Translations under genes and position numbers: made by a program | Notes under the pieces: model-generated | Database searches by the model: none | Seen by the model: the letters and a program-made list of their open reading frames with translations, nothing else | What the model was told of the DNA's origin: nothing | Origin: a virus | Reading direction: 5' to 3' (one strand) | DNA: 64,000 nt | Virus record (IMG/VR): IMGVR_UViG_3300009158_000045 | Location: 1 to 64,000 of that record | Shown: positions 3,593 to 64,000 of the stretch, piece after piece | Numbering within the stretch: the stretch's first letter is position 1 | Layout: each line of letters opens with the position of its first letter

Positions 3593-5074
3593 ATGTCAAA
3601 AAATATAGGTAGAAGAGCATCTGCTCAAGATAACTTTACGGGCCCAGAGCCAGTAACAAATGTCACAGCAACAGACGTAGGAACCGCCCGCCCATACGCA
3701 AGCGGTGCTATTCAGGTTTCTTGGACACCTCCAGCAAATATATCTAATATTCCAACAGGATATAAAGTATATAAAGCAGGAGTTTTGCAGGCTACAGTTG
3801 CCTATGGTACAAATACTGTACTTATAGAGGGCCTAGCGCCAGGATCTACCCATACGTACGCAGTTTCATCCTACGACTCTTATTATGATTCATCAGCAAA
3901 TGCTGTACAGGCTTCAAGCACACCAACTGTAACTACAGTTCCAGGTATACCTACTTCAATGTCTGTTACGTCATCTGTTAATGGAATTGACGTTTTATCA
4001 TGGGCTGAAGCAAATACTGGAGGAAAACCAATTACCTCTAGACGGTATGCATCAGTTAACGATAGCCCAACAAAAACTGGAACTGGCGCAAGCCCACAAA
4101 ATGTTACAAATGAGCCAGGAACAGCACAGAGCTATGATGTATTTTTAACAAATGCAAATGGAGAAGGTTTAGCAGGTCGAGTAGGCCCAGTTACAACATT
4201 CTTCGCACCGCCAGTATTCTTTGGTCCACCAGCGTTCTTTTCACCACCAGCGTTCTTTTCACCACCAGCGTTCTTTTCACCACCAGCGTTCTTTTCACCA
4301 CCAGCGTTCTTTTCACCACCAGCGTTCTTTAGCCCGCCAGTATTCTTCTCACCACCAGCGTTCTTTAGCCCGCCAGTATTCTTCTCACCACCAGCGTTCT
4401 TTAGCCCGCCAGTATTCTTCTCACCACCAGGGTTCTTTAGCCCGCCAGTATTTTTTGGTCCGCCAGTATTTTTTGGTCCGCCAGTATTCTTTAGCCCGCC
4501 AGTATTTTTTGGTCCGCCAGTATTTTTTGGTCCGCCAGTATTCTTTTCGCCACCAAGATTTTTTGGGCCACCACCATTTTCAATTGGACCAGAGACTCTT
4601 GTTCTAACAGAAAACGGATTGACAAGAGCAGAAAATATAGTTGTTGGAGATAAATTAAAATCTATCAATATACCTTCAATAACAGAAATGTTTGCAGATA
4701 AATCAAAACCATTAGACATATCTACTCTTGATCTTTTACCACAAGATGTACGTGATGCAGAAGAAGCATTCACAACTGTTACGGAAGTAAAAATTCATCA
4801 AAAAAATGATATCTTAATAATTAATGGAGAATATCTTACAGCATCACACGCTTTAGTTATTGCTCGAGGGGAAGACGTAAAATTTGTTACAGCCTCAGAA
4901 ATAGTTGAAGGAGATGCAATATGGTCACACAAAGAAAACACATTTGTCCATGTTGATTCTATATCTAGTCAAGAAGGCCTGTTTTACGTATACAGCTTAA
5001 TTCTAGATCCTCATCCATTCTATTTCACTGACAAAACGTTATCATTTGATAACACTACAGAAATATCAGAATAA
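3593..5074 (+). CDS. Fn3 - (PPxFFx)20 - Hint domain protein, 493 aa
   Basis: Three parts can be read. Residues about 15-200 form two fibronectin-III-like domains (IQVSWTPP, TYAVSSYD, YDVFLTNANG). Residues 206-325 are exactly twenty hexapeptides PP(A/V/G/R)FF(S/G). Residues about 330-487 form a Hint (intein/Hedgehog-type) domain. It starts SIGPETLVLTENG and continues AENIVVGDKL, then a block-B signature T416-A-S-H419, VEGDAIWSH, and the closing block VYSLILDPHPFYF with D486-N487-T488. Position 1 is Ser (S330) rather than Cys, and the usual penultimate His is Asp. Asn at the end and Thr at +1 are compatible with splicing or cleavage chemistry. The RBS is TAGGAG before the ATG. The protein is probably a virion adhesin that may process itself. 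It sits directly upstream of the oxygenase cassette. Confidence 0.8.
   Translation: MSKNIGRRASAQDNFTGPEPVTNVTATDVGTARPYASGAIQVSWTPPANISNIPTGYKVYKAGVLQATVAYGTNTVLIEGLAPGSTHTYAVSSYDSYYDSSANAVQASSTPTVTTVPGIPTSMSVTSSVNGIDVLSWAEANTGGKPITSRRYASVNDSPTKTGTGASPQNVTNEPGTAQSYDVFLTNANGEGLAGRVGPVTTFFAPPVFFGPPAFFSPPAFFSPPAFFSPPAFFSPPAFFSPPAFFSPPVFFSPPAFFSPPVFFSPPAFFSPPVFFSPPGFFSPPVFFGPPVFFGPPVFFSPPVFFGPPVFFGPPVFFSPPRFFGPPPFSIGPETLVLTENGLTRAENIVVGDKLKSINIPSITEMFADKSKPLDISTLDLLPQDVRDAEEAFTTVTEVKIHQKNDILIINGEYLTASHALVIARGEDVKFVTASEIVEGDAIWSHKENTFVHVDSISSQEGLFYVYSLILDPHPFYFTDKTLSFDNTTEISE
4208..4567 (+). repeat. 18-bp coding minisatellite, 20 units
   Basis: Twenty in-frame 18-bp units run without interruption, each coding PP-x-FF-(S/G). 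Units 2 to 7 encode the identical PPAFFS with almost identical codons. Later units alternate PPVFFS/PPAFFS or become PPVFFG, so the array contains older and recently expanded parts. The repeat keeps open frames on other strands and frames; those are by-products. Confidence 0.95.
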
Positions 5075-5078
5075 TATA

Positions 5079-5107
5079 TTGTATATTATTTAAGGTTATG
5101 GTATTAT
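5079..5107 (+). promoter_or_regulatory. Promoter of the oxygenase cassette
   Basis: TTGTAT (5079-5084), a 17-nt spacer and TATTAT (5102-5107) lie in the only gap between the Hint protein and the oxygenase cluster. A GTGGA ribosome-binding site precedes the ATG at 5133. Confidence 0.5.
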
Positions 5108-5132
5108 ATACCTATAAGTAGAGTGGAACAAA

Positions 5133-5753
5133 ATGAATTCATACGAAATTGAAAAAGGCATATGGGTCTACCGTAATGCCTTGCCAGAGAGTCTTGATAT
5201 AATAAATAGACTTGAGTCATTGCTAGAAGACAAAAATAATTCATATTTTTGGAAGCCTTCAGTAGCGTCAGAAGACTATAGGTCAATAAAAAAAGATTAT
5301 CGTGACTGCTACGATTTTAAAATTAAAAAGGATCCAACAATTTTAAACAAAAATAAATATTGGCTTGAGGCCGATTCTATTTGGCAAGATTGTTATGATT
5401 CAATGATTAATCCAATCTCTGAGTATTCAAATAAATATAAAATCCAAATGAATTATATGGAAGCATTTAATTTTATTAAATATGGGCCAAATGAACATTT
5501 CTCTGAACACTCTGATCACGGCCACTCTTATGTCTGTACGCTTTCAGCAGTAGGATATTTTAATGATAATTACGATGGCGGAGAGCTATATTTTAATAAT
5601 TTTAATTTAAAAATTAAACCAGAAAAGGGAGACCTTTATCTATTTCCATCTACTTATTTATTTTCACACGCAGCCCTACCAGTAACCAACGGCACCAAAT
5701 ATTCTCTAGTCACGATGCTAGATTATAACGATCAATACCATAAAGGAAATTAA
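5133..5753 (+). CDS. 2OG-Fe(II) oxygenase, prolyl-hydroxylase type (paralogue 1)
   Basis: The double-stranded beta-helix core is clear. Y117-G118 precede the iron motif H126-S-D128, followed by GYFNDNYDGGELYF, the turn IKPEKGDLYLFPS and the distal iron ligand H179. The co-substrate-binding position is K189 (GTKYSLV) where most relatives have Arg. The family uses 2-oxoglutarate and O2 to hydroxylate proteins or small molecules. At 206 aa it has only the catalytic domain, and no signal peptide is visible. It is the first gene after the Fn3-PPxFFx-Hint protein and is a close tandem paralogue of the next gene. The substrate is unknown. Confidence 0.85.
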   Translation: MNSYEIEKGIWVYRNALPESLDIINRLESLLEDKNNSYFWKPSVASEDYRSIKKDYRDCYDFKIKKDPTILNKNKYWLEADSIWQDCYDSMINPISEYSNKYKIQMNYMEAFNFIKYGPNEHFSEHSDHGHSYVCTLSAVGYFNDNYDGGELYFNNFNLKIKPEKGDLYLFPSTYLFSHAALPVTNGTKYSLVTMLDYNDQYHKGN

Positions 5754-5754
5754 A

Positions 5755-6420
5755 ATGTTACCAAATGCAGAATATCTAGCACCAGGAGTACTAGTCTATA
5801 GAAATGTATTTACAAAAGAGATGGACCTTATAAATAGACTTGAAGGAACACTTTCCGAAAATGCTTCAGAGCTACAGTGGAAACAAGCAATGACTGGGTA
5901 CGGAGATACAAATAAAAAATATCGTGATTGTTACGATTTTAAAATTAAGAAAAATGTCGATGATCCAACTGGCAAAAGTGAAGCTACACTTAAGCTTGAA
6001 AAGATTTGGGAAGATGCAAAAGAAGCTCAACTTGCGCCAGTAGAAGATTATAGAAGAATGTTTGGGCTTGCTCCATTAAACTATTGGGAGTCATTTAATT
6101 TTGTAAAGTATGGTCCAGACCAGCACTTTGATATTCACTCTGACCATGGATATTCTTACATCTGTGTATTATCTTCTGTTGGATACATTAACGATGACTA
6201 CGAAGGCGGAGAGCTATTTTTTGATAAGCTGGGTTTAAAGATTAAGCCAAAAGCTGGAGATCTATATCTCTTCCCGTCAGCCTATATTTACTCACATGCA
6301 GCGATGCCAGTTACATCTGGAACTAAATACTCAATAGTTACAATGCTAGATTATTTAGAAGCACCACATACTCCCGACTATCGTGAAATAGAAAAACGAT
6401 ATACAAAAGATTATCTATAA
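5755..6420 (+). CDS. 2OG-Fe(II) oxygenase, prolyl-hydroxylase type (paralogue 2)
   Basis: It is strongly similar to the gene immediately upstream, including the N-terminal KYRDCYDFKIKK and the core GYINDDYEGGELFF. Iron ligands are H128, D130 and H181. K191 occupies the 2-oxoglutarate carboxylate position. Only one base separates it from the upstream stop, so the two are co-translated products of a tandem duplication. A C-terminal extension of about 20 residues is added. The catalytic residues are complete, so it should be active. The target is unknown. Confidence 0.85.
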   Translation: MLPNAEYLAPGVLVYRNVFTKEMDLINRLEGTLSENASELQWKQAMTGYGDTNKKYRDCYDFKIKKNVDDPTGKSEATLKLEKIWEDAKEAQLAPVEDYRRMFGLAPLNYWESFNFVKYGPDQHFDIHSDHGYSYICVLSSVGYINDDYEGGELFFDKLGLKIKPKAGDLYLFPSAYIYSHAAMPVTSGTKYSIVTMLDYLEAPHTPDYREIEKRYTKDYL

Positions 6421-6435
6421 TCTAGAAATACTTTA

Positions 6436-7149
6436 ATGTATACAGTACATGCATACCCAATAGAAAAACATGTTGCAGACATTTGTCCATTATCTTTTAA
6501 AAGATCCTGGATGGATGAAACATATGAGGGACACGCATACCACTGTTTTCCAGTAACTTTAGCAAATTCTTTGGGATGGGGCGTGTCGTTTCCAGAAGAC
6601 ATATCTTTTATATGGGATGGAATAACCTCCCCAAACCAAAGTCACATTAAAATAGTTTCTGGAGAGAAGTACATCTCATTAGATAGATCTAATGCAACAA
6701 TAAGTTTAAATACTGGTATTGTTTTTAAGACAGAAAAAAATGTAAGCCTGCTTACAATGGGTGCGCCAAATGAATTTGTAGACGGGCTCTCACCATTTAC
6801 AACCATCATTAGTTCCTCATTTTTCCCAGGACAAATGCCTTGTGTTTTTAAGATAACAAAACCAAATGAATTAATTACTATTAAAGCTGGAACGGTACTG
6901 TTTTCAATAATACCAATATCTTTATCTGAAATGAATAACTCAAATTTAATTATTGAGGCACCTTCAAGCAAAATGGCATCTCTGTTTGATATGAATGAAT
7001 ATGATAAAAAGAAAAAAGAGATTATTTTTTCTGGAAAATGGACTGGATTTTATAGAAATGCAACGGACCATAATGGAAATAAAATTGGCGAACATGAAGT
7101 AAAAAAAATTATTTTTAATATTAAGGAAAATAATAATGAAAGAAATTAA
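6436..7149 (+). CDS. DUF6065-like protein of unknown function (paralogue A)
   Basis: This 237-aa protein has the pattern KRSWMDET, then HAYHCFPVTLANSLGWGVSF and PEDISFIWDG. A second beta-rich half contains FTTIISSSFFPGQMPC and IKAGTVLFSIIPISLSE. The layout recalls DUF6065, a phage/bacterial family of unknown function probably with a beta-barrel (cupin-like) fold. That family name is my recollection and not a search result. It is the first of three related genes inside the oxygenase cassette. No Shine-Dalgarno is obvious, so coupling to the upstream stop 15 bases away is likely. Confidence 0.6.
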   Translation: MYTVHAYPIEKHVADICPLSFKRSWMDETYEGHAYHCFPVTLANSLGWGVSFPEDISFIWDGITSPNQSHIKIVSGEKYISLDRSNATISLNTGIVFKTEKNVSLLTMGAPNEFVDGLSPFTTIISSSFFPGQMPCVFKITKPNELITIKAGTVLFSIIPISLSEMNNSNLIIEAPSSKMASLFDMNEYDKKKKEIIFSGKWTGFYRNATDHNGNKIGEHEVKKIIFNIKENNNERN

Positions 7150-7849
7150 AGTTTATAAAAGCAGTGAAAACTCAGCTAGCTTATCTCAGCTTCCAGTTAA
7201 AAGATCATGGATGGACGAAACAGTAGATGCACATGCCTATAGATGTTTCCCAGTAACATTAACAAATTCTTTAGGCTGGGGCCTGTCTTTTCCAGAAGAC
7301 ATATCTTTTATATGGGATGGAATCTCTGACACATCGGGCTCGCATGTAAGAATACTTGAAGGAGAAAAATATTGCTTTACAGAAAGAGCAAATGCAACCA
7401 TAAGTTTTAAAACAGGTCTAATATTTAAAACAGATTCATCCACCAGCCTGCTACAAATGCCAGTACCAAACATGTTTTGGGAAGGAGCACAAGCATTTAC
7501 AACAATTATTAGTACCTCATTTTTTAGCGGAGATTTGCCTTGTGCATGGAGAATTACCGTGCCAAATAAAATAATAACAATAAAAGCAAACCAGCCGTTT
7601 ATATCATTGCTGCCAGTATCCTTGTCAGAACTTCAGAATTCAGAAATGCAGTTCTCTGGCCCAGAAATATTAAAGGCTGTAGACTACACAGAGCAAGAAC
7701 ATTTACAAATTGTAAAAGAAACAGTTGATGAGGGCGGATGGACAAATTTTTATAGAGACGGTGTTGATCCTTTTGGGAAAAAAATTGGGGAACATGAAGT
7801 TAAATCAATTAGACTCAGGACAAAACAAATAGGAGAAAAAAATGAATAA
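7136..7849 (+). CDS. DUF6065-like protein of unknown function (paralogue B)
   Basis: It has the same length (237 aa) and plan as the upstream gene: KRSWMDET, HAYRCFPVTLTNSLGWGLSF, PEDISFIWDG, FTTIISTSFFSGDLPC, IKANQPFISLLPVSLSEL, and a shared C-terminus GWTNFYRDGxDxxGxKIGEHEVK. The reading frame overlaps the upstream gene by 14 bases. The duplication is old enough that the middle and N-terminus differ. Aromatic and Cys positions (YRCFP) are conserved. Function is unknown; a small-molecule or metal-binding barrel is possible. Confidence 0.6.
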   Translation: MKEIKVYKSSENSASLSQLPVKRSWMDETVDAHAYRCFPVTLTNSLGWGLSFPEDISFIWDGISDTSGSHVRILEGEKYCFTERANATISFKTGLIFKTDSSTSLLQMPVPNMFWEGAQAFTTIISTSFFSGDLPCAWRITVPNKIITIKANQPFISLLPVSLSELQNSEMQFSGPEILKAVDYTEQEHLQIVKETVDEGGWTNFYRDGVDPFGKKIGEHEVKSIRLRTKQIGEKNE

Positions 7850-8567
7850 AATAATATTCCACGCCAATAGGCTATACAACAAGACTGCAGAAAAATTTAG
7901 ACCAGTAGTTGCTAAATCTTATGTACCAAAATGGTATTCAAATGCAGATCGATATGAAAAAAATATGGCTACTGGGGAATATTATTTAAATAATGAGGGA
8001 GGAAAGCTATTATCATTTAAAGCTTGCCCAGCAATGCTAGACTTATTTACATCAGGATATCTGTATGTGACTCCATGCGATTTAACGTTTTTTAAAAAAA
8101 CAGATGGAACAATGGACGTTAAAACAGAATTAGGTTTTGAAGATTTTTGTGGAGCAAGACCCGCAATGCCAAATTTTCAAGTACCAGAGGGATACGGTAG
8201 CTCTCATTTTCATTGGTATCCGAACTGGGCCCCACAGCTGCCTCAAGGGTACAGCGCACTGTATGTTAGCCCATTAAACAGATTTGAATTACCATTTATA
8301 ACTACTGCTGGTATAATAGATAATGACAAGATGGATACACCAGGACTTGTTCCATTTTTCTTAAGGAATGGATTTGAGGGCGTATTACCAGCGGGCACAC
8401 CCTATTTACAGATACTTCCATTTAAAAGAGAAGACTGGCAAATGGATTTTAAATTTTACGAGTATGGTGACATTATAAAAAGACACAATGCTCAGGCAGA
8501 ACTTTATAGAACAAAAGATGGTGGTTCTTACAAAAAGAACACATGGTCAAGAAAGAAATACGAATAG
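7842..8567 (+). CDS. Divergent third member of the DUF6065-like set
   Basis: This 241-aa protein aligns by pattern with the two upstream genes. CPAMLDLFTSGYLYVTPCDL corresponds to CFPVTLANSLGWGVSFPEDI. VLPAGTPYLQILPFKREDW corresponds to IKAGTVLFSIIPISLSE. It adds a long N-terminus (FRPVVAKSYVPKWYS) and an aromatic/His-rich centre (SSHFHWYPNW). It overlaps the upstream gene by 8 bases with an AGGAG ribosome-binding site. The C-terminus is basic. It is probably part of the same pathway as the oxygenases; the reaction is unknown. Confidence 0.55.
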   Translation: MNKIIFHANRLYNKTAEKFRPVVAKSYVPKWYSNADRYEKNMATGEYYLNNEGGKLLSFKACPAMLDLFTSGYLYVTPCDLTFFKKTDGTMDVKTELGFEDFCGARPAMPNFQVPEGYGSSHFHWYPNWAPQLPQGYSALYVSPLNRFELPFITTAGIIDNDKMDTPGLVPFFLRNGFEGVLPAGTPYLQILPFKREDWQMDFKFYEYGDIIKRHNAQAELYRTKDGGSYKKNTWSRKKYE

Positions 8568-8575
8568 GAGCTAAA

Positions 8576-9265
8576 ATGCAAAATATGAATCAAGACGTTT
8601 CAGAGAGAGTTAGGTTCTCAAGAAAATCAATTACGCCTTCTGGATACTTCGGAGCACAGTCAGAAAATATAGTAGAGCTTGAAGACTTTATAACACTTGA
8701 AGAGCAGGATTATCTTTTAAATTTTGCAAAGAATAATAAGTTTTGGGATATAACCGAATCTCAATGGAATGAAAATGGAAACATTATTTATGATCATAGA
8801 GTTTGGGAAAATAGAGTAGCAACTGTAAAAACTTTAGAAAAATCCGACCCTAAAGTTATAGAGATATTAAATGTTGTTATTGCAAGAATGAAGCCAATAA
8901 TTGAAGAGTTCTTCAAGGTTGAAGTTTGGCCTACCTCACCAGCTATAGTTAGATGGCCAGTTGGAACGATGCAGTTCCCACACGCAGACAAAGAGCTTCA
9001 CGAGGGCCCAGACGCTGGCACAGAAAATGAATTTCCTTGGTATGACATTGGAACAGTATTCTACTTAAATGATGACTACATCGGCGGAGAGCTATTCTTC
9101 CCAAAACAAAATATAACATTTAAAACAAAAGCAAGAGGTGCTTACTTTTTCCCAGGAGATCTAAACTATATTCATGGGGTAAATAAAGTAACAGAAGGAA
9201 CAAGATATACATGCCCATTTTTTTGGACAATCACAAAGCTAGGAACAGATAATGAGCAAAATTAA
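8576..9265 (+). CDS. 2OG-Fe(II) oxygenase (paralogue 3)
   Basis: The chosen ATG at 8576 has TAGGAG 6 nt upstream, which is better than an in-frame ATG at 8543 that would run into the upstream gene. The 229-aa product has iron ligands H136-A-D138 and H200 and the co-substrate Arg R210 (EGTRYTCPFFW). The core FYLNDDYIGGELFF and the turn YFFPGDLNYIHG are typical. Between the first iron ligands and the core it carries a 20-residue acidic insertion. It is more canonical (Arg rather than Lys) than the first two paralogues. The substrate is unknown. Confidence 0.8.
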   Translation: MQNMNQDVSERVRFSRKSITPSGYFGAQSENIVELEDFITLEEQDYLLNFAKNNKFWDITESQWNENGNIIYDHRVWENRVATVKTLEKSDPKVIEILNVVIARMKPIIEEFFKVEVWPTSPAIVRWPVGTMQFPHADKELHEGPDAGTENEFPWYDIGTVFYLNDDYIGGELFFPKQNITFKTKARGAYFFPGDLNYIHGVNKVTEGTRYTCPFFWTITKLGTDNEQN

Positions 9266-9965
9266 AAAACATAGATATGATGCATTTTCTGTCTTAGAAT
9301 TTATGACGGAAGAAGAGTGTAAAAAGGTAATAGCTTATCTAGAATTCCTAGCAGATTCTGGAAATTTAAAATGGAACCAGATTTCTTTTTACGAATCTTA
9401 CGCTATGGGGTTTTGGGATACGGACATTAACCTGTTAGCATTTGGACTACCAGCAGATTATTTTAAAAATTTAAATGTAAGAATTAGAGAAAAGGTTGAA
9501 GAGTGCCTAGGATTTAAGGTCTCTGAAATAAGCTATCATGCACAAAAGTGGATAGAGGGAGCCTTTGCCAGCTTCCATTCAGATAATTGTGATGAAGAAG
9601 GAAACCCAACGCCATTTGAAAGAAGTAGATATGCGGCTTTTCTTTATCTAAATGAAGACTTTACTGGAGGTAAATTAAACTTTAAGCATTTTGATCTTTC
9701 AATAGAACCAAAGGTTGGAATGCTTGCAGTATTTGCAGGTGGATTTGGAATGGAACATGAAGTCGCAACAGTAAACAGCGGAACAAGATATACAATAGGT
9801 TCATTTTGGGATCGAGCAGATGCAGTCTACAGCGAGGAACAAAAAGAAGCTTGGGCTAAAGAGCTTGCAGAGATTAGAGCACTTCAAGATGACATGTATA
9901 AAGCTTGGGATAAAGGAAAAGAAATAGGAAATATTCCTATATATAAAAGCAAAGAAGATCTATAA
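9252..9965 (+). CDS. 2OG-Fe(II) oxygenase (paralogue 4)
   Basis: Iron ligands H109-S-D111 and H169 (GMEHEV) and Arg R179 (GTRYTIGSFWD) are complete. The core reads FLYLNEDFTGGKLNF. After the catalytic domain comes a charged helical tail of about 50 residues rich in Glu, Lys and Ala, not present in the other copies and perhaps a docking element. The start overlaps the upstream gene by 14 bases. It probably modifies the same class of target as its neighbours, which is inference. Confidence 0.8.
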   Translation: MSKIKKHRYDAFSVLEFMTEEECKKVIAYLEFLADSGNLKWNQISFYESYAMGFWDTDINLLAFGLPADYFKNLNVRIREKVEECLGFKVSEISYHAQKWIEGAFASFHSDNCDEEGNPTPFERSRYAAFLYLNEDFTGGKLNFKHFDLSIEPKVGMLAVFAGGFGMEHEVATVNSGTRYTIGSFWDRADAVYSEEQKEAWAKELAEIRALQDDMYKAWDKGKEIGNIPIYKSKEDL

Positions 9966-10585
9966 TGAATCACGAAGTACTTGAAAAAAGAATTATCTTG
10001 TACAAAAATTTAATAGAAAATCCTGTTGCATTTATTCAAGAAATTGAAGACCTCGACATCTTATTACAAGAAAATTCACAAATATCAAAATGGAAAACTT
10101 GGTACTCAAGCGATGAAAATCCCACTCCTTACGGAGTTTGGAAAAATGGCATAGAGCACAATTTTTTAAACGAGACAGATATTGATATAAGATGCTCTTC
10201 TATAGTAAATGTTTTAAAAAATTCAATAGATTCTTGCGTAGACCACTATTCTAAATTATTAAACATTGAACCTGGAGGAAGGTCACCAGAGTTTAATATA
10301 AAAAAATATAACCAGAAACAATCAATGGGAGCACACATAGATTATCAAGAAGATCCCGATAAGCCACAGTCTACTATATCTATTGTTTTTTATTTAAACG
10401 ATGACTATGAGGGTGGGGAAATTGGTTTTCCAAATCATGGTATTAAAATAAAACCAGAGGCAGGTAGTTTAATTATATTCCCATCGACAGCACCATATTA
10501 TCACGAATCTCATGTTCTGCTATCTGGTAACAAATATATGACACTAGCATTTTATTTTAAAGACAAGGAGCTATCATGGATATAA
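9965..10585 (+). CDS. 2OG-Fe(II) oxygenase (paralogue 5)
   Basis: The 206-aa protein has H124-I-D126, the core FYLNDDYEGGEIGFP, the turn IKPEAGSLIIFPS, the distal His at H183 and Lys K190 (SGNKYMTLAFYF) at the 2-oxoglutarate position. The MGAHIDYQED context is typical of prolyl-4-hydroxylase-like phage enzymes. The ATG shares a base with the upstream TAA. It is closest to the following gene (SKYNQxxxMGxHxD and SGxKYM shared). Confidence 0.8.
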   Translation: MNHEVLEKRIILYKNLIENPVAFIQEIEDLDILLQENSQISKWKTWYSSDENPTPYGVWKNGIEHNFLNETDIDIRCSSIVNVLKNSIDSCVDHYSKLLNIEPGGRSPEFNIKKYNQKQSMGAHIDYQEDPDKPQSTISIVFYLNDDYEGGEIGFPNHGIKIKPEAGSLIIFPSTAPYYHESHVLLSGNKYMTLAFYFKDKELSWI

Positions 10586-11211
10586 TCAAGATGCCACATA
10601 ACATTTACTATATTAAAAATGTTATAGAAAATCCTAAAGAAATTATAAAAATTATTGAAAGTACAAACTCTTCATTAAACTCCAATACCATTCTTTCTCC
10701 ATGGCATGGATGGGGAGGTACATATTTAAATGAAGATGCAGAAGATAAAACTTTATATGAAACAGACCCCAAGAGCATTGGGTCTCAAAAAACAAAAAAT
10801 AAAAAATGGGAAAAAGCTCAAAATGAAGAAGACGAAAAATGTATAGAGGTTGTTAGGATAATTGAGAACGCTTTAGAAAGTGCTACTAAATACTATTGCA
10901 AAGAAAATAATCTAAAACACACCTTTAGATTTTCTCCACTTACAATTTCTAAATATAATCAGCACGGAGGAATGGGCACACACGTAGACTCAGACAGCGA
11001 TTTTAATAAATCAGCGTCTGCAATAATATATTTAAATGATGAGTATGAGGGCGGAGAAGTTGTATTTGATAGCTTTGAAATTTCTTTGAAGCCCGAAGCT
11101 GGTAGTATACTCATGTTTCCTTCACATACCCCATACGAGCACACAGTAAAAGCAATAAAGTCTGGTCATAAATACATGTGTAGCTTTGTGTATTTAGTTG
11201 AAGATCTTTAA
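10576..11211 (+). CDS. 2OG-Fe(II) oxygenase (paralogue 6)
   Basis: It contains H136-V-D138, the core IIYLNDEYEGGEVVF, LKPEAGSILMFPSHTPYEH with distal ligand H189, and K199 (SGHKYMCSF). The N-terminus (IYYIKNVIENPKEIIKII) matches the upstream gene (ILYKNLIENPVAFIQEI), so these two form a second tandem pair. It overlaps the upstream gene by 10 bases and is the last oxygenase of the cassette. A charged 30-residue loop precedes the core. The catalytic set is complete. Confidence 0.8.
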   Translation: MDIIKMPHNIYYIKNVIENPKEIIKIIESTNSSLNSNTILSPWHGWGGTYLNEDAEDKTLYETDPKSIGSQKTKNKKWEKAQNEEDEKCIEVVRIIENALESATKYYCKENNLKHTFRFSPLTISKYNQHGGMGTHVDSDSDFNKSASAIIYLNDEYEGGEVVFDSFEISLKPEAGSILMFPSHTPYEHTVKAIKSGHKYMCSFVYLVEDL

Positions 11212-11228: not shown

Positions 11229-12965
11229 ATGTCCTACTCTATGAATGTCATGAACGATAATCCAATTGGCTACTGGCCATTGGATGAAACTTCAGGCACC
11301 ATTGCTTACGACAGCTCGGGGTGTGGCAATAACGGATCCTATCCGTCGAATAATGTATTTTCTAAAATTTTGCCTATGTGTCCTGGCGGCTTGTATTCAA
11401 CTCTTATTAACACAGTAAATTATTTAACACTTCCGATAACAAAAAATTATATAGGATCAACGGAAAAGGGCGGTCTTGCAACAAAGTATTATTCAGATAA
11501 TGATTTTTCAATAGAAATTTTATTTAAGTCATATATATCAACTTCAAGCGCAACCCCAATATTTGCGGACAATACAAATAAAATAGGTATATATTGGGAA
11601 AACGGATCAATATTGTTTTCTTTGCAAGATGTAAAGCTTTACTGCACACCTAAAAATATAAAAAAATCAATGCATTTGGTAGTAACTTATTCGCAGCAGG
11701 TTATATGTATTTACGTTGACGGCACTCTTCTTGCATCAAAAATACTAGATAGTTTTGTATTTACAAATACATCCTTATCCTTTTCTTCTGGCCCAAGTCT
11801 CAATGCCTCAGATTCATTTTTAATAGATGCCCCAGCAGTTTATAGATATGCCCTTTCTCAAGAAAGCATACTCAGTCATTTTAATTCATTAAACACTATC
11901 TCTCCAATACAGGTTGTCAGTCCAGATGGAGGCACACTATTTATGCCAGATATAAATGATTTAAAGGAAGTATTTGAATACGGATACCCTAAAAACAAAA
12001 ATTTATATGATTTTATAAATTCTAGCTTGCAGTATAATCAAGTTGAAAAATCCTTGCAGATGGCACAAGAGTCAGTCGGGCAGTCTAAAGATATAGAAAT
12101 ATATGACTACATTGTTATCCCATTAACACATTTAAATCAAATGCCAGTTCTTTCAAAAGTTGAATGGTCTGGTGAAAACGGTATTTTTGTTTATACAAGC
12201 CTAGATAATATTAACTGGTCTCAGTGTACAAATGGCAAAGAGATACCTCAATATAATTCAACCTCATTGGATTTAAGTGGAGTCTTATATATTAAAATAG
12301 TATTTAGTAGCTTTGACACATCAAAATTTTTGCCTAAATTGGAATATTTTAATTTATCTATTTACAACGGAAGCTCATTGCCTTCTTATAATTTTGGAGA
12401 CAAGATATCTAAAATTAATCAGGTGTATAGCGTAGGAACCAAAGTATATAATATTCTTTCCCACAACTATTACAATGGATTAAGAACTCAGGCATCAAGC
12501 GGATTTAAAATAGAAAACTCTAAATCAATAAGGTCTATAGAATTCTTTTATACACCAACTTCAAATGGAGCTAGTCAGTTAATATCTAATGCCTCTGCAG
12601 GGTTATCTTGGAATACGGGCGGGACGGTATCAAAAAACAATATTGCCTCTGTATACATCAACGGAATAGATAGATCTTCAATAACTACGGCTTCGACGCT
12701 TTTTTCTAATTTAAATCAAATTCATTATATAGTCATAAATTTTGCATCCCCGATATCAGGAGATATCAGCATTGGAGCTGGCCCAGAGGCCCTGTATTCT
12801 AATATAGCCTTATACGAATACCCCCTTACTCAGGCCTATGTATCAACTCATTACAACCTATATACCTCTTTCCCGTCCAGCCTAGCAGACCCAGAGGTAT
12901 TGTCTATTTCAGAATCTGGCACAAAGGTGTTCAATAATACCTGGGAGATAATACAAAGCAGATAG
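11229..12965 (+). CDS. LamG/concanavalin-like structural protein, 578 aa
   Basis: The N-terminus NPIGYWPLDETSGTIAYDSS followed by GCGNNG is the classic opening of a LamG-like (concanavalin A-type) domain. Its later strands appear as FSIEILFKSY and ICIYVDGTLLASK, ending near residue 220 with PAVYRYALSQESILSHFN. A second LamG-like unit lies at about 425-570 (SIRSIEFFYTP, SVYINGIDRS, ALYEYPLTQAYVSTHYN). The middle is a beta-rich linker. Such proteins in phages are virion components that bind glycans. It has its own leaderless-type promoter and sits between the oxygenase cassette and the head genes. Confidence 0.7.
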   Translation: MSYSMNVMNDNPIGYWPLDETSGTIAYDSSGCGNNGSYPSNNVFSKILPMCPGGLYSTLINTVNYLTLPITKNYIGSTEKGGLATKYYSDNDFSIEILFKSYISTSSATPIFADNTNKIGIYWENGSILFSLQDVKLYCTPKNIKKSMHLVVTYSQQVICIYVDGTLLASKILDSFVFTNTSLSFSSGPSLNASDSFLIDAPAVYRYALSQESILSHFNSLNTISPIQVVSPDGGTLFMPDINDLKEVFEYGYPKNKNLYDFINSSLQYNQVEKSLQMAQESVGQSKDIEIYDYIVIPLTHLNQMPVLSKVEWSGENGIFVYTSLDNINWSQCTNGKEIPQYNSTSLDLSGVLYIKIVFSSFDTSKFLPKLEYFNLSIYNGSSLPSYNFGDKISKINQVYSVGTKVYNILSHNYYNGLRTQASSGFKIENSKSIRSIEFFYTPTSNGASQLISNASAGLSWNTGGTVSKNNIASVYINGIDRSSITTASTLFSNLNQIHYIVINFASPISGDISIGAGPEALYSNIALYEYPLTQAYVSTHYNLYTSFPSSLADPEVLSISESGTKVFNNTWEIIQSR

Positions 12966-62145: not shown

Positions 62146-62238
62146 ATGATTAAATTAAAATACTTTTTTTATAACATATATTATAAAATTAAAAAAAGGT
62201 TTAAAAAAAATAATAACACAGATAGGTTTATATATTAA
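62146..62238 (+). CDS. 30-aa basic ORF between tRNA and SGNH genes
   Basis: ATG is preceded by a strong GGAGG with 7-nt spacing, and the TAA overlaps the next ATG (TAATG). The product is Lys/Tyr-rich: MIKLKYFFYNIYYKIKKRFK and then KNNNTDRFIY. The perfect ribosome-binding site and coupling suggest a leader peptide or small protein for the downstream genes. It is not recognised in any family. Confidence 0.5.
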   Translation: MIKLKYFFYNIYYKIKKRFKKNNNTDRFIY

Positions 62239-63269
62239 TGAAGCAAGAAGCAAGAATGTCCCTAGATGCAACCATGATCTATGGGGCAAATGATGATTTT
62301 AGATTAAACCTGCTGGCCAGAAAAGCTTTATTCTTTAACGATTTTCTGTGTTCAACAGAAAATAATCAGACCATCCTTGCAGAAGGAGGGGTAGAGTATT
62401 CATACAATTCTGATGGGTTTAGGTCAGACGACTTTGCTGAAGACGCAGATACATTATTTGCTGGATGCTCCTTTACCTTCGGAACAGGAATGCATCAAAA
62501 GTATATTTGGTCAAAGATTGTTTCAGAAGAAATGGGTGTAGAACACTATAACCTTGGCTCCCCATCATCTTCAATTCCAGCAATAGTGTATTCATTATTT
62601 AATTATTTTCAAAAATATGGAAATCCAAAGAATTTAATTTGCCTTTTCCCTGATTTTTATAGAATGCAAGTACCAATAAATTATAACTTTTATTATTGTG
62701 AAAACAATCCAAACGTTGGTAAAGATCAAGACATGAATGCCTATCAATATATACGTAATGTCACTGGAATACGGCCATCAAATTATCAGACCCTAGACAA
62801 AATTTTAGAAAAGCCCTATAAAATACAACAAGGTTTTTCTGGTGATTTGCCATACTTTTTATCATTAAGACATTTAATGATGCTAGAGCAGTACTGTAAG
62901 TCAAGCGGGATAAATTTTATCTGGGGCCTATGGCAAACTGAAAATTACGCAGCTATATTAAAAATGAGAGAACATGATAGTAACTTGTTTCCTGGCCTTA
63001 TTGATTTAGAAATGTATAAATGGAGAATGAACTACGATTCCCTAGAAGACGAGTTCTTTCCAGGCAACCATCAAATAGCATTTAATAATTGGGAAGAGTC
63101 GGACAAATTAAAAAGACAACACTGCCATACAGAATTAGAAAGCAATGAGCCTGAAATTTTTCACCTGGGCTTAGACAGGCAGCATGGATGGGTAAATACA
63201 CATTGGGGTACACATAGGCATAGACATATTGCTGATTCTTTTATAAAGGAGATTAAAAAAAATGTATAG
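62238..63269 (+). CDS. SGNH/GDSL-hydrolase-like protein, 343 aa (paralogue 1)
   Basis: Block I is FAGCSFTFGTG with S78 as putative nucleophile, the block-II/III region contains EHYNLGSPSSS with Gly and Ser, and the C-terminal block is WGTHRHRHIADSF with a catalytic-type His. A WINLOG-like segment NFIWGLWQTENY lies before. The SGNH fold removes acyl groups from glycans or lipids. It has a second copy immediately downstream. No signal peptide is visible, so it could be a virion or cytoplasmic enzyme. Confidence 0.7.
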   Translation: MKQEARMSLDATMIYGANDDFRLNLLARKALFFNDFLCSTENNQTILAEGGVEYSYNSDGFRSDDFAEDADTLFAGCSFTFGTGMHQKYIWSKIVSEEMGVEHYNLGSPSSSIPAIVYSLFNYFQKYGNPKNLICLFPDFYRMQVPINYNFYYCENNPNVGKDQDMNAYQYIRNVTGIRPSNYQTLDKILEKPYKIQQGFSGDLPYFLSLRHLMMLEQYCKSSGINFIWGLWQTENYAAILKMREHDSNLFPGLIDLEMYKWRMNYDSLEDEFFPGNHQIAFNNWEESDKLKRQHCHTELESNEPEIFHLGLDRQHGWVNTHWGTHRHRHIADSFIKEIKKNV

Positions 63270-64000
63270 CATTTCAAAAAAATTTAGGGACGAAAATTTA
63301 CTATCAAAAAATTTTGTAAACCCACATAATGCTTTTGAGAGATTTATTTTTAATGAATTGAGGGCAGTATACAAGCTAGACAATTCAGAAGATCATGGTC
63401 CAGGCGTTTCTTATAATCTAAATAAAAATGACTACAGGTCACCAGAATTTTTTAACAACCCAGATGTAATCATTACTGGTTGCTCTCAAACTTACGGGCA
63501 GGGTGTGCCAGAAGAAACATCATGGGGTGTACAGGCATCCAATGCTTTAAATTTATCCTATGTAAATATATCAGAGCCTTCATCATCAACCATGCATCAA
63601 ATTCAAAAAATATTTAAATTTATAAAAGAATATGGAAAACCAAAATATATTTTTTGCATGTTCCCATCATTTGCAAGATACTCAATGCCAATAAGCCCTG
63701 GGCTATTAACGGCTAAATCAATAAAACATAATAATGGTAGATATAATGCTTCAAATATTATTGCACAAGTTTTAATTGATGATGATGGATTTGCTCCCGT
63801 GCATTCTGATTATTTTACACAGGATAGACCGCAGTATTTAAAAAGCCCGTACTATATGGAAGACGTGATACCACCAGAAGTAGGATACTATTATTCTTTT
63901 CAGCATATACATATGCTGGAGCAATACTGCCAAGACGCCAACATAGATTTATATTGGACCACCTGGAATGAATCTGATGAGCATTTAATTAAATATGCAA
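63262..64000 (+). CDS. SGNH/GDSL-hydrolase-like protein (paralogue 2, partial)
   Basis: It starts at 63262, overlapping the upstream gene by 8 bases, and is cut by the window end after about 246 codons. Block I ITGCSQTYGQG has S75. The block near YVNISEPSSSTMHQIQ and the middle YIFCMFPSFARYSMPISP match the upstream copy (NLICLFPDFYRMQVPI). The C-terminal His block is outside the window. Tandem duplication is clear by pattern, with divergence across the length. Confidence 0.7.
   Translation, partial: MYSISKKFRDENLLSKNFVNPHNAFERFIFNELRAVYKLDNSEDHGPGVSYNLNKNDYRSPEFFNNPDVIITGCSQTYGQGVPEETSWGVQASNALNLSYVNISEPSSSTMHQIQKIFKFIKEYGKPKYIFCMFPSFARYSMPISPGLLTAKSIKHNNGRYNASNIIAQVLIDDDGFAPVHSDYFTQDRPQYLKSPYYMEDVIPPEVGYYYSFQHIHMLEQYCQDANIDLYWTTWNESDEHLIKYA

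Follow-up and report, generated by a model that had tools for sequence, protein, structure and literature searches.

A gene whose protein carries an invariant PPxFF repeat lies directly upstream of a block of prolyl 4-hydroxylase (P4H)-type 2-oxoglutarate (2OG)-Fe(II) oxygenases and dUTPase-fold proteins of the DUF6065/phrog_7084 type, in a near one-to-one association. PPxFF-bearing proteins occur in many uncultured water-borne phages, almost always beside this P4H-like enzyme block. The best reading of the arrangement, to which we give a probability of around 60%, is a cassette for the prolyl hydroxylation and maturation of a virion protein, sometimes with glycosylation.

The window analysed comprises the first 64,000 nucleotides of a 73-kb virus record that is related to actinophages. 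All the cassette genes are on the + strand, in a tight run where the repeat-protein gene (3593..5074) is followed by six oxygenase genes and three DUF6065-type genes, with intergenic gaps of 58, 1, 15, -14, -8, -25, -14, -1 and -10 bp, up to a Laminin-G-like gene (11229..12965, + strand) that marks the boundary. The sequence-only reading had described six oxygenases with iron motifs after a protein with Fn3, PPxFFx and Hint parts, and every one of these genes was found where it had been placed. Promoter and terminator scans gave only chance-level results.

The repeat protein has 493 amino acids and, according to Pfam and its sequence, consists of an Fn3 region, the array and a Hint-like C-terminus; the position of the gene suggests a virion-type protein. 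Its Fn3 match (Pfam E 2e-4) is slightly below the cut-off and relatives reach 1.6e-12. The array (4208..4567, + strand; residues 206-325) contains 20 exact PPxFFx units and 40 prolines, as had been estimated before, with P, P, F and F invariant and codons varying synonymously. Collagen-type Gly-X-Y triplets are absent from this array, which is a hexapeptide repeat without glycine periodicity and contains a single Arg and no Lys. Since the PPxFF DNA pattern occurs in none of 50 random virus contigs, the array is far beyond chance.

Regarding the oxygenases, all six in the window have a PF13640 domain that contains the HxD...H iron triad, and a basic residue exactly 10 positions after the distal His, the place of the 2OG-binding Lys in collagen-type P4H. 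This residue is Lys in four of them (5133..5753, with HSD; 5755..6420; 9965..10585, with HID; and 10576..11211, with HVD) and Arg in the other two (8543..9265, with HAD, and 9252..9965, with HSD), all on the + strand. The 8543 oxygenase obtained 24.9 bits with hmmscan, just below the PF13640 cut-off of 27, and passes with its neighbours in a genome-wide profile search. What we call the core enzyme is the one at 5755..6420 (H128, D130, H181, K191), a copy of which usually lies immediately 5' of DUF6065; the 5133 enzyme is its paralogue (50% identical). Its model (pLDDT 92) has the P4H fold, prolyl hydroxylases make up nearly all of the top structural matches (Z 17-20), and the superposition on 3gze, an algal P4H with (Ser-Pro)5, gave Z 20.3 and 2.3 A over 173 residues. 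Profile matches were obtained with the B. anthracis P4H (E 1e-8) and with PBCV-1 vCPH. Judging from the model, the nearest folds of the core enzyme are peptide-modifying prolyl hydroxylases and not small-molecule enzymes; a P4H fold alone is not proof of a proline substrate.

The target would be proline rather than phenylalanine. It is unlikely that the oxygenases modify the virion repeat on phenylalanine, or on both residues, for example by beta-hydroxylation of FF, although FF is as invariant as PP (it is present in 1409 of 1410 PP-xxxx-PP hexamers, with synonymous codon variation), each locus has 5-8 different oxygenases, more than the two prolines of a unit, and Arg replaces the collagen-type Lys in two of the six window enzymes. 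Against phenylalanine stand the prolyl hydroxylase folds nearest to the core enzyme, the variant arrays, where the FF spacing changes while the Pro-aromatic order is kept, and the presence within the cassette of a few phages of PF11397, a family named for hydroxyproline glycosylation.

The neighbour enrichment that had been put forward as a check was examined across phages, and it was strong in both directions. PF13640 was found in 50/50 PPxFF contigs vs 5/50 random virus contigs (Fisher p about 1e-22) and DUF6065 in 47/50 vs 0/50 (p about 1e-24), in both cases with a control that is not habitat-matched; it replaced a first random control, based on a 17-base pattern, that had only 8 contigs. 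A 2OG gene starts at most 1.5 kb downstream of 79 of the 91 PPxFF genes and of 60 of the 294 control ORFs, and the distance is at most 150 bp for 57/91 and 17/294 respectively. When 69 DUF6065 loci were taken as the starting point, PPxFF was upstream in 50, while 15 were cut under 2 kb and 4 were others; three of these four PPxFF-less loci were examined and all had variant Pro/Phe repeats. Where the upstream sequence is long enough, nearly all DUF6065 loci are thus preceded closely by PPxFF or by such a variant. The two-way enrichment and the peptide-modifying folds nearest to the core enzyme support the functional link that had been proposed between P4H-type enzymes and the proline repeat.

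The same pairing is seen again with other, unrelated scaffold proteins, and it extends to at least two lineages of phages. The Fn3 scaffold with its synteny accounts for 76 of the 103 clustered scaffolds, and scaffolds unrelated to each other (Fn3; AINYTVGAF/PASTA-like; L105; L118) each have an adjoining 2OG gene. None of the seven class-2 contigs, of which five measure 98-205 kb, had a detectable window-type TerL; the TerL-matched contigs were mostly short fragments, and only one carries PPxFF, with DUF6065 within 3 kb. This persistence bears on another explanation, which we regard as quite improbable, namely that the cassette hydroxylates another virion protein or a surface glycan, with the PPxFF gene as no more than a regular neighbour within a module for host recognition. 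The cassette does adjoin the Laminin-G-like protein as well, there are mini-cassettes away from PPxFF, and the genome has a further 2OG/sugar cluster at 62-70 kb (two of its eight PF13640 matches lie beyond the window, at 64.5 and 69.9 kb), but the link survives a changed scaffold, gene order and lineage, and the repeat is the constant element.

The sequence-only reading had also described three DUF6065-like genes. This holds for two of them (6436..7149 and 7136..7849, + strand), which match DUF6065 (PF19541) with 101.9 and 102.4 bits against a gathering cut-off of 26.6 (E ~1e-29). The third (7842..8567, + strand) has no Pfam match and belongs instead to phrog_7084 (1.7e-30), being a divergent relative distantly alignable to DUF6065 with about 20% identity. 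None of them is part of the oxygenase set: the model of the 7136 protein (pLDDT 87) shows a trimeric dUTPase fold, its top structural matches are all dUTPases (Z 10-11; 2.7 A over 116 residues against 8hrv), and on this dUTPase-like model we rejected DUF6065 proteins as further oxygenases. By homology the 6436 protein probably shares the fold. By eye, a dUTPase motif-3-like TTAGIIDND was seen in the 7842 protein and none of motifs 1-5 was recognised in DUF6065; sequence profiles gave no match to dUTPase chains. Searches with tblastn over 50,697 records of isolated phages found neither DUF6065 nor relatives of the repeat protein, and our literature search found no paper on DUF6065. A bacterial scan gave three DUF6065 loci, two of them phage-like with Pro/Phe repeats and 2OG genes, and a Caulobacterales copy with no neighbouring 2OG gene.

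The dUTPase fold raises the possibility, in our view very unlikely, that dUTPase-fold proteins and 2OG oxygenases make a modified base by a JBP/TET-like logic. The search with phrog_7084 led only to haloviruses, where it lies near nucleotide-metabolism genes (ribonucleotide reductase or thymidylate synthase), and its surroundings in the two haloviruses examined showed no recognisable 2OG gene or Pro repeat. A second 2OG-DUF6065-2OG set was found in G103/G118 among replication genes, away from any PPxFF gene. The nucleotide-enzyme fold, the halovirus neighbourhood and this second set all count against our preferred reading. Nevertheless, the Tet_JBP scores are far under the cut-off, the core enzyme matches prolyl hydroxylases, and base modification leaves the near one-to-one link with the repeat protein unexplained.

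The closest isolated relative is Streptomyces phage Phredrick, whose portal and MCP are 56% identical and which keeps the Laminin-G-like gene (11229), the 13032 gene and the portal in synteny, and both the PPxFF repeat and the oxygenase cassette are absent from it. Hitch-hiking of unrelated auxiliary genes in one successful phage lineage, already disfavoured, is hardly credible: most loci do share the Fn3 scaffold and synteny, but the pairing also exists where the scaffold is a different, unrelated one and where the window-type TerL is undetected, and both parts are missing together from this isolate.

The Hint domain had been proposed to trim or crosslink the modified protein. In the window, the tail (4580..5071, + strand), judged by eye, resembles a degenerate Hint/intein domain, with Ser330 at position 1 (Ser330-IGPETLV), LTASH and a terminal FDN followed by TTEISE; it does not match at the curated Hint/intein family cut-off, and its best relative reached 25.4 bits vs 35.8 (Intein_splicing). 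Among the Hint-like relatives, position 1 is Cys in 55/67 and Ser in 9/67, the C-terminal Asn is present in 50/67 and TxxH in only 14/67. However, of 121 repeat proteins 67 end in a Hint-like domain, 47 in a short tail and one (L029) in Peptidase_S74. The Hint domain is optional because the cassette persists in loci that lack it, and we rejected it as an essential partner of the oxygenases; no literature linking phage Hint domains with oxygenases was found. Hint or S74 tails may be interchangeable C-terminal self-processing modules and not the heart of the system. Tail proteins with Peptidase_S74 chaperone or Hint domains are alike in that such domains follow the PPxFF arrays, and differ in that here the processing domain is optional and the oxygenase link is not.

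If the hydroxylation reading is correct, the oxygenases, with O2, 2-oxoglutarate and Fe(II), would hydroxylate the array in the infected cell, most probably at its prolines, and the several paralogues could cover different positions or substrates; two or more PPxFF proteins are encoded in some of the genomes. The DUF6065-type proteins may be accessory, probably trimeric, binding partners. The hydroxylated array would then be built into a tail or surface fibre, giving rigidity or tuned host adhesion, and in a minority of phages the PF11397 glycosyltransferase could glycosylate the hydroxyproline. We propose only tentatively, at clearly less than even odds, the full version: an undescribed phage system of post-translational modification, in which P4H-type oxygenases and dUTPase-fold specificity partners hydroxylate Pro (possibly Phe) across the PPxFF array, followed by glycosylation in some phages and by C-terminal self-processing, to produce a new modified viral fibre.

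In collagen and plant extensin, P4H acts on long proline-repeat structural proteins. Here the enzymes with Lys at +10 also lie beside a proline-repeat protein, whereas the repeated unit is PPxFFx in place of Gly-X-Y or Ser-Pro, and the enzymes are multiple, free-standing, small and phage-encoded. The chlorovirus PBCV-1 vCPH (5C5T) is a single enzyme of a eukaryotic-algal virus, in contrast to the several enzymes of a phage, and we know of no repeat gene or DUF6065 linked to it. The PBCV-1 P4H hydroxylates peptides, yet hydroxyproline was undetected in the virion proteins (PMC7019647). In the Skp1 pathway of Dictyostelium and Toxoplasma (PhyA and Gnt1), a P4H is followed by a GlcNAc transferase acting on the hydroxyproline (PMC3515798). 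Similarly, three loci (L029, L037 and L344) have, next after their PPxFF gene, a PF11397 GlcNAc-transferase gene of the Skp1-hydroxyproline family, although the Skp1 pathway is eukaryotic, concerns one proline in a folded protein and serves oxygen signalling. The presence of PF11397 in 5/50 PPxFF vs 0/50 random contigs was not significant (p 0.056).

Few genes that lack an explanation are as widespread in aquatic phages as those of the 2OG-Fe(II) oxygenases, which have been assigned to metabolism or DNA repair. The window enzymes belong to the same PHROG as those of cyanophages (phrog_61, E 1e-14 to 1e-27), which are reported to have a structural likeness to human EGLN3 (PMC12774648) and have proposed roles in 2OG/nitrogen metabolism and DNA repair (PMC3037559); the viral use of prolyl 4-hydroxylase was called 'cryptic' in a recent survey (PMC9301287). 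The cyanophage enzymes differ in that no Pro-rich array was found near their genes in the three stretches checked, where one gene is near a tail fibre, and therefore the oxygenase family has other substrates. With a specific substrate candidate genetically tied to phage oxygenases, a single peptide and a single enzyme suffice for a direct test of their function. If true, phages would hydroxylate, and perhaps glycosylate, their own particles, hardening or decorating them, of which no earlier example is known to us; DUF6065 would gain a fold and a context, and the cassettes might supply small hydroxylases for repeat-protein materials.

In the repeat protein of the window (3593-5074), an Fn3-type region precedes exactly 20 PPxFFx units, which together contain 40 prolines, and the C-terminus is Hint-like. 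Nine same-strand genes (5133-11211) follow it 3', namely six 2OG-Fe(II) oxygenases (2OG) of PF13640 and three DUF6065-type genes, which is the gene content that the sequence-only reading had described. Because they share the strand and the gaps are 58 to -25 bp, the repeat gene and these nine genes look like one transcription unit. The host is likely actinobacterial, since the TerL is 62-65% identical to those of Streptomyces phages of the Phredrick/Gilson group. The virus record totals 73,120 bp, of which the window covers 64 kb, and has two additional PF13640 genes at 64.5 and 69.9 kb. In its 62-70 kb region (window 62238-64000 and L343 2239-10113), SGNH-like genes form a sugar-type cluster together with genes for a carbamoyltransferase, a sugar nucleotidyltransferase, a GT61 glycosyltransferase and two further 2OG oxygenases.

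Scanning IMG/VR for DNA encoding PPxFFxPPxFFxPP gave at least 120 stretches, the first in scan order and not a census, which together with relatives of the window protein provided 121 repeat proteins of 3-34 units each. Contigs in this set are incomplete, and IMG/VR contains redundant entries: removing near-duplicates left 33 core enzymes (the 2OG gene 5755-6420 and its counterparts). With Pfam profiles over whole contigs, PF13640 was present in 50/50 PPxFF contigs, typically in 5-8 copies, versus 5/50 random 14-mer contigs, and DUF6065 in 47/50 versus 0/50, this random control not being habitat-matched. The PPxFF DNA pattern occurred in 0/50 random virus contigs. Regarding the three PPxFF contigs lacking DUF6065, the PPxFF gene runs to the sequence edge in L034 and L113, and L105 has few repeat units, yet a 2OG gene adjoins.

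The linkage also holds within loci. Using HMMs built from these same loci, a 2OG gene started within 1.5 kb downstream of 79/91 PPxFF genes versus 60/294 other ORFs, and within 150 bp of 57/91 versus 17/294, the control ORFs sharing habitat and lineage and possibly including some spurious ones. Several of the 12 PPxFF genes with no 2OG gene within 1.5 kb lie on contigs with another PPxFF gene that has the cassette. The neighbour enrichment that the sequence-only reading had proposed to look for was therefore found.

The search was also run in reverse, with 23 DUF6065 proteins as query, and 69 of the best 80 viral loci were new. Among these 69, a PPxFF gene lay 0.7-4 kb upstream in 50, the sequence broke off within 2 kb upstream in 15, and PPxFF was missing from 4. 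Three of these four (L405, L396, L417) were examined; in a survey with HMMs from the same loci, their scaffold was homologous and bore a variant form of the Pro/Phe array, e.g. FPAPPYFPAPPYFP and PFFPPNFCPFFPPNFC; two phage-like MAG contigs (L350, L351) had the same arrangement with PPFFPPFF-type arrays. In these the enzymes are kept and PPxFFx is replaced by APPYFP (L405 5854-6843), PFFPPNFC (L417 616-1515), FFPPFFPF (L350 748-1530) or PPFFPPFF (L351 4898-5284), a natural series for specificity tests. Mini-cassettes in which 2OG is joined by a 100-aa protein and a divergent DUF6065 lie among replication genes in L349 (6035-7880) and, with another 2OG, in L348 (4057-6838); neither has a repeat protein beside it. 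A Caulobacterales chromosome also encodes DUF6065 (L352 7908-8696), with neither an oxygenase nor a repeat protein nearby.

The scaffolds N-terminal to the array, whose comparison is headed by INDEPENDENCE, form unrelated clusters: 76 Fn3-type, 12 of the AINYTVGAF type (with a PASTA-like N-terminus in L429), 11 large tail proteins, and the singletons L105 and L118. A 2OG gene adjoins each of the Fn3, AINYTVGAF, L105 and L118 types. Window-type TerL was undetected in 7/7 AINYTVGAF-class contigs tested, five of them of 98-205 kb, and their core enzymes and DUF6065 proteins are 36-43% and 25-30% identical to those of the window. Phredrick, the closest isolated relative, has an MCP 56% identical to the window's and keeps the LamG-g118-portal order, yet within the 95% of its genome examined it has no PPxFF, 2OG or DUF6065; the simplest reading is that repeat and enzymes were gained or lost together.

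The repeat is under selection: of 1410 hexamers between successive PP pairs in the arrays, 1409 have FF at their core, whereas the codons for Pro (CCA/CCT/CCG/CCC) and Phe (TTC/TTT) differ in third position, and the residues at x drift among G, S, A, V, R, L and among A, S, G. The 121 proteins end in a Hint-like domain (67), a short tail (47) or Peptidase_S74 (1), or are incomplete (6). Among the Hint-like ends, 55 have Cys1, 9 Ser1 and 50 a C-terminal Asn. Hint had been proposed as part of the linked system, trimming or crosslinking the repeat; such an end is indeed common, the window protein included, but the oxygenase link is independent of tail type and the tails are interchangeable. In L029 (9631-10284) an intramolecular chaperone, Peptidase_S74, follows the array and implies that the repeat is set in a trimeric fibre.

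All six window oxygenases keep HxD and the distal His, so their iron motifs are complete as first read; ten residues on there is Lys in 4 and Arg in 2. We modelled the core enzyme, usually encoded immediately upstream of DUF6065, on the basis of 34 relatives (pLDDT 92.2); it has a prolyl hydroxylase fold, the best structure match being algal P4H with (Ser-Pro)5 (Z 20.3, 2.3 A over 173 residues), followed by Trichoplax PHD with HIF peptide (20.2), P. putida P4H with EF-Tu (19.7), PHD2-HIF (about 19) and PBCV-1 vCPH (18.1). By sequence profile against the PDB, B. anthracis P4H was best (E 1e-8). Since the nearest solved structures are prolyl hydroxylases, a peptidyl substrate fits this model, without being proved by it.

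A nucleotide pathway, which we retain as an unlikely alternative role for the cassette, rests on the DUF6065-type proteins. The DUF6065 model (pLDDT 87.4) matches trimeric dUTPases at Z 10-11, the better alignments spanning about 116 residues at 2.7-3.3 A. Furthermore, the 7842 protein (phrog_7084), the third DUF6065-type protein, has a motif-3-like TTAGIIDND, and its haloviral relatives lie near ribonucleotide reductase or thymidylate synthase. Halovirus phrog_7084 (L422 8860-9744, L423 8872-9744) keeps SGIVDVDSY, dUTPase motif-3-like, near nucleotide-metabolism genes, and is probably an unrecognised dUTPase/dCTP-deaminase relative. We favour, with a probability of about 0.62, hydroxylation of the repeat protein, mainly on proline, as the job of the cassette. 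The oxygenases would act on the PPxFF array with proline as the principal target, DUF6065 would be their partner, a nucleotide-binding trimeric fold recruited as accessory or assembly factor, and the array protein would be built into the virion.

In occasional phages glycosylation might follow. L029 (E 4.8e-20), L344 and L037 (split ORF) encode a PF11397 GlcNAc-transferase a short distance downstream of PPxFF. The eukaryotic protein after which this family is named glycosylates the Skp1 hydroxyproline produced by a P4H. Because enrichment over all contigs is only 5/50 versus 0/50 random (p 0.056), PF11397 is a hint of array glycosylation and not proof. The Skp1 pathway is described in PMC3515798.

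Our literature search found no paper on DUF6065 or on a phage repeat-hydroxylation cassette. For cyanophage 2OG oxygenases, roles in DNA repair or in nitrogen/2OG metabolism have been proposed (PMC3037559), viral use of P4H was termed cryptic in a Baltic virus survey (PMC9301287), and phrog_61 resembles EGLN3 according to Phold (PMC12774648). Chlorovirus P4H takes peptides as substrates, and hydroxyproline was undetected in virion proteins (PMC7019647). Regarding annotation, the PHROG matches of all six window enzymes and H41/H42 (Synechococcus phage ACG-2014h) show that plain 2OG oxygenases fall under PHROGs named 'ferrochelatase' (phrog_3531) and 'DNA endonuclease' (phrog_2297); across two copies of one record, one gene carries both types of annotation.
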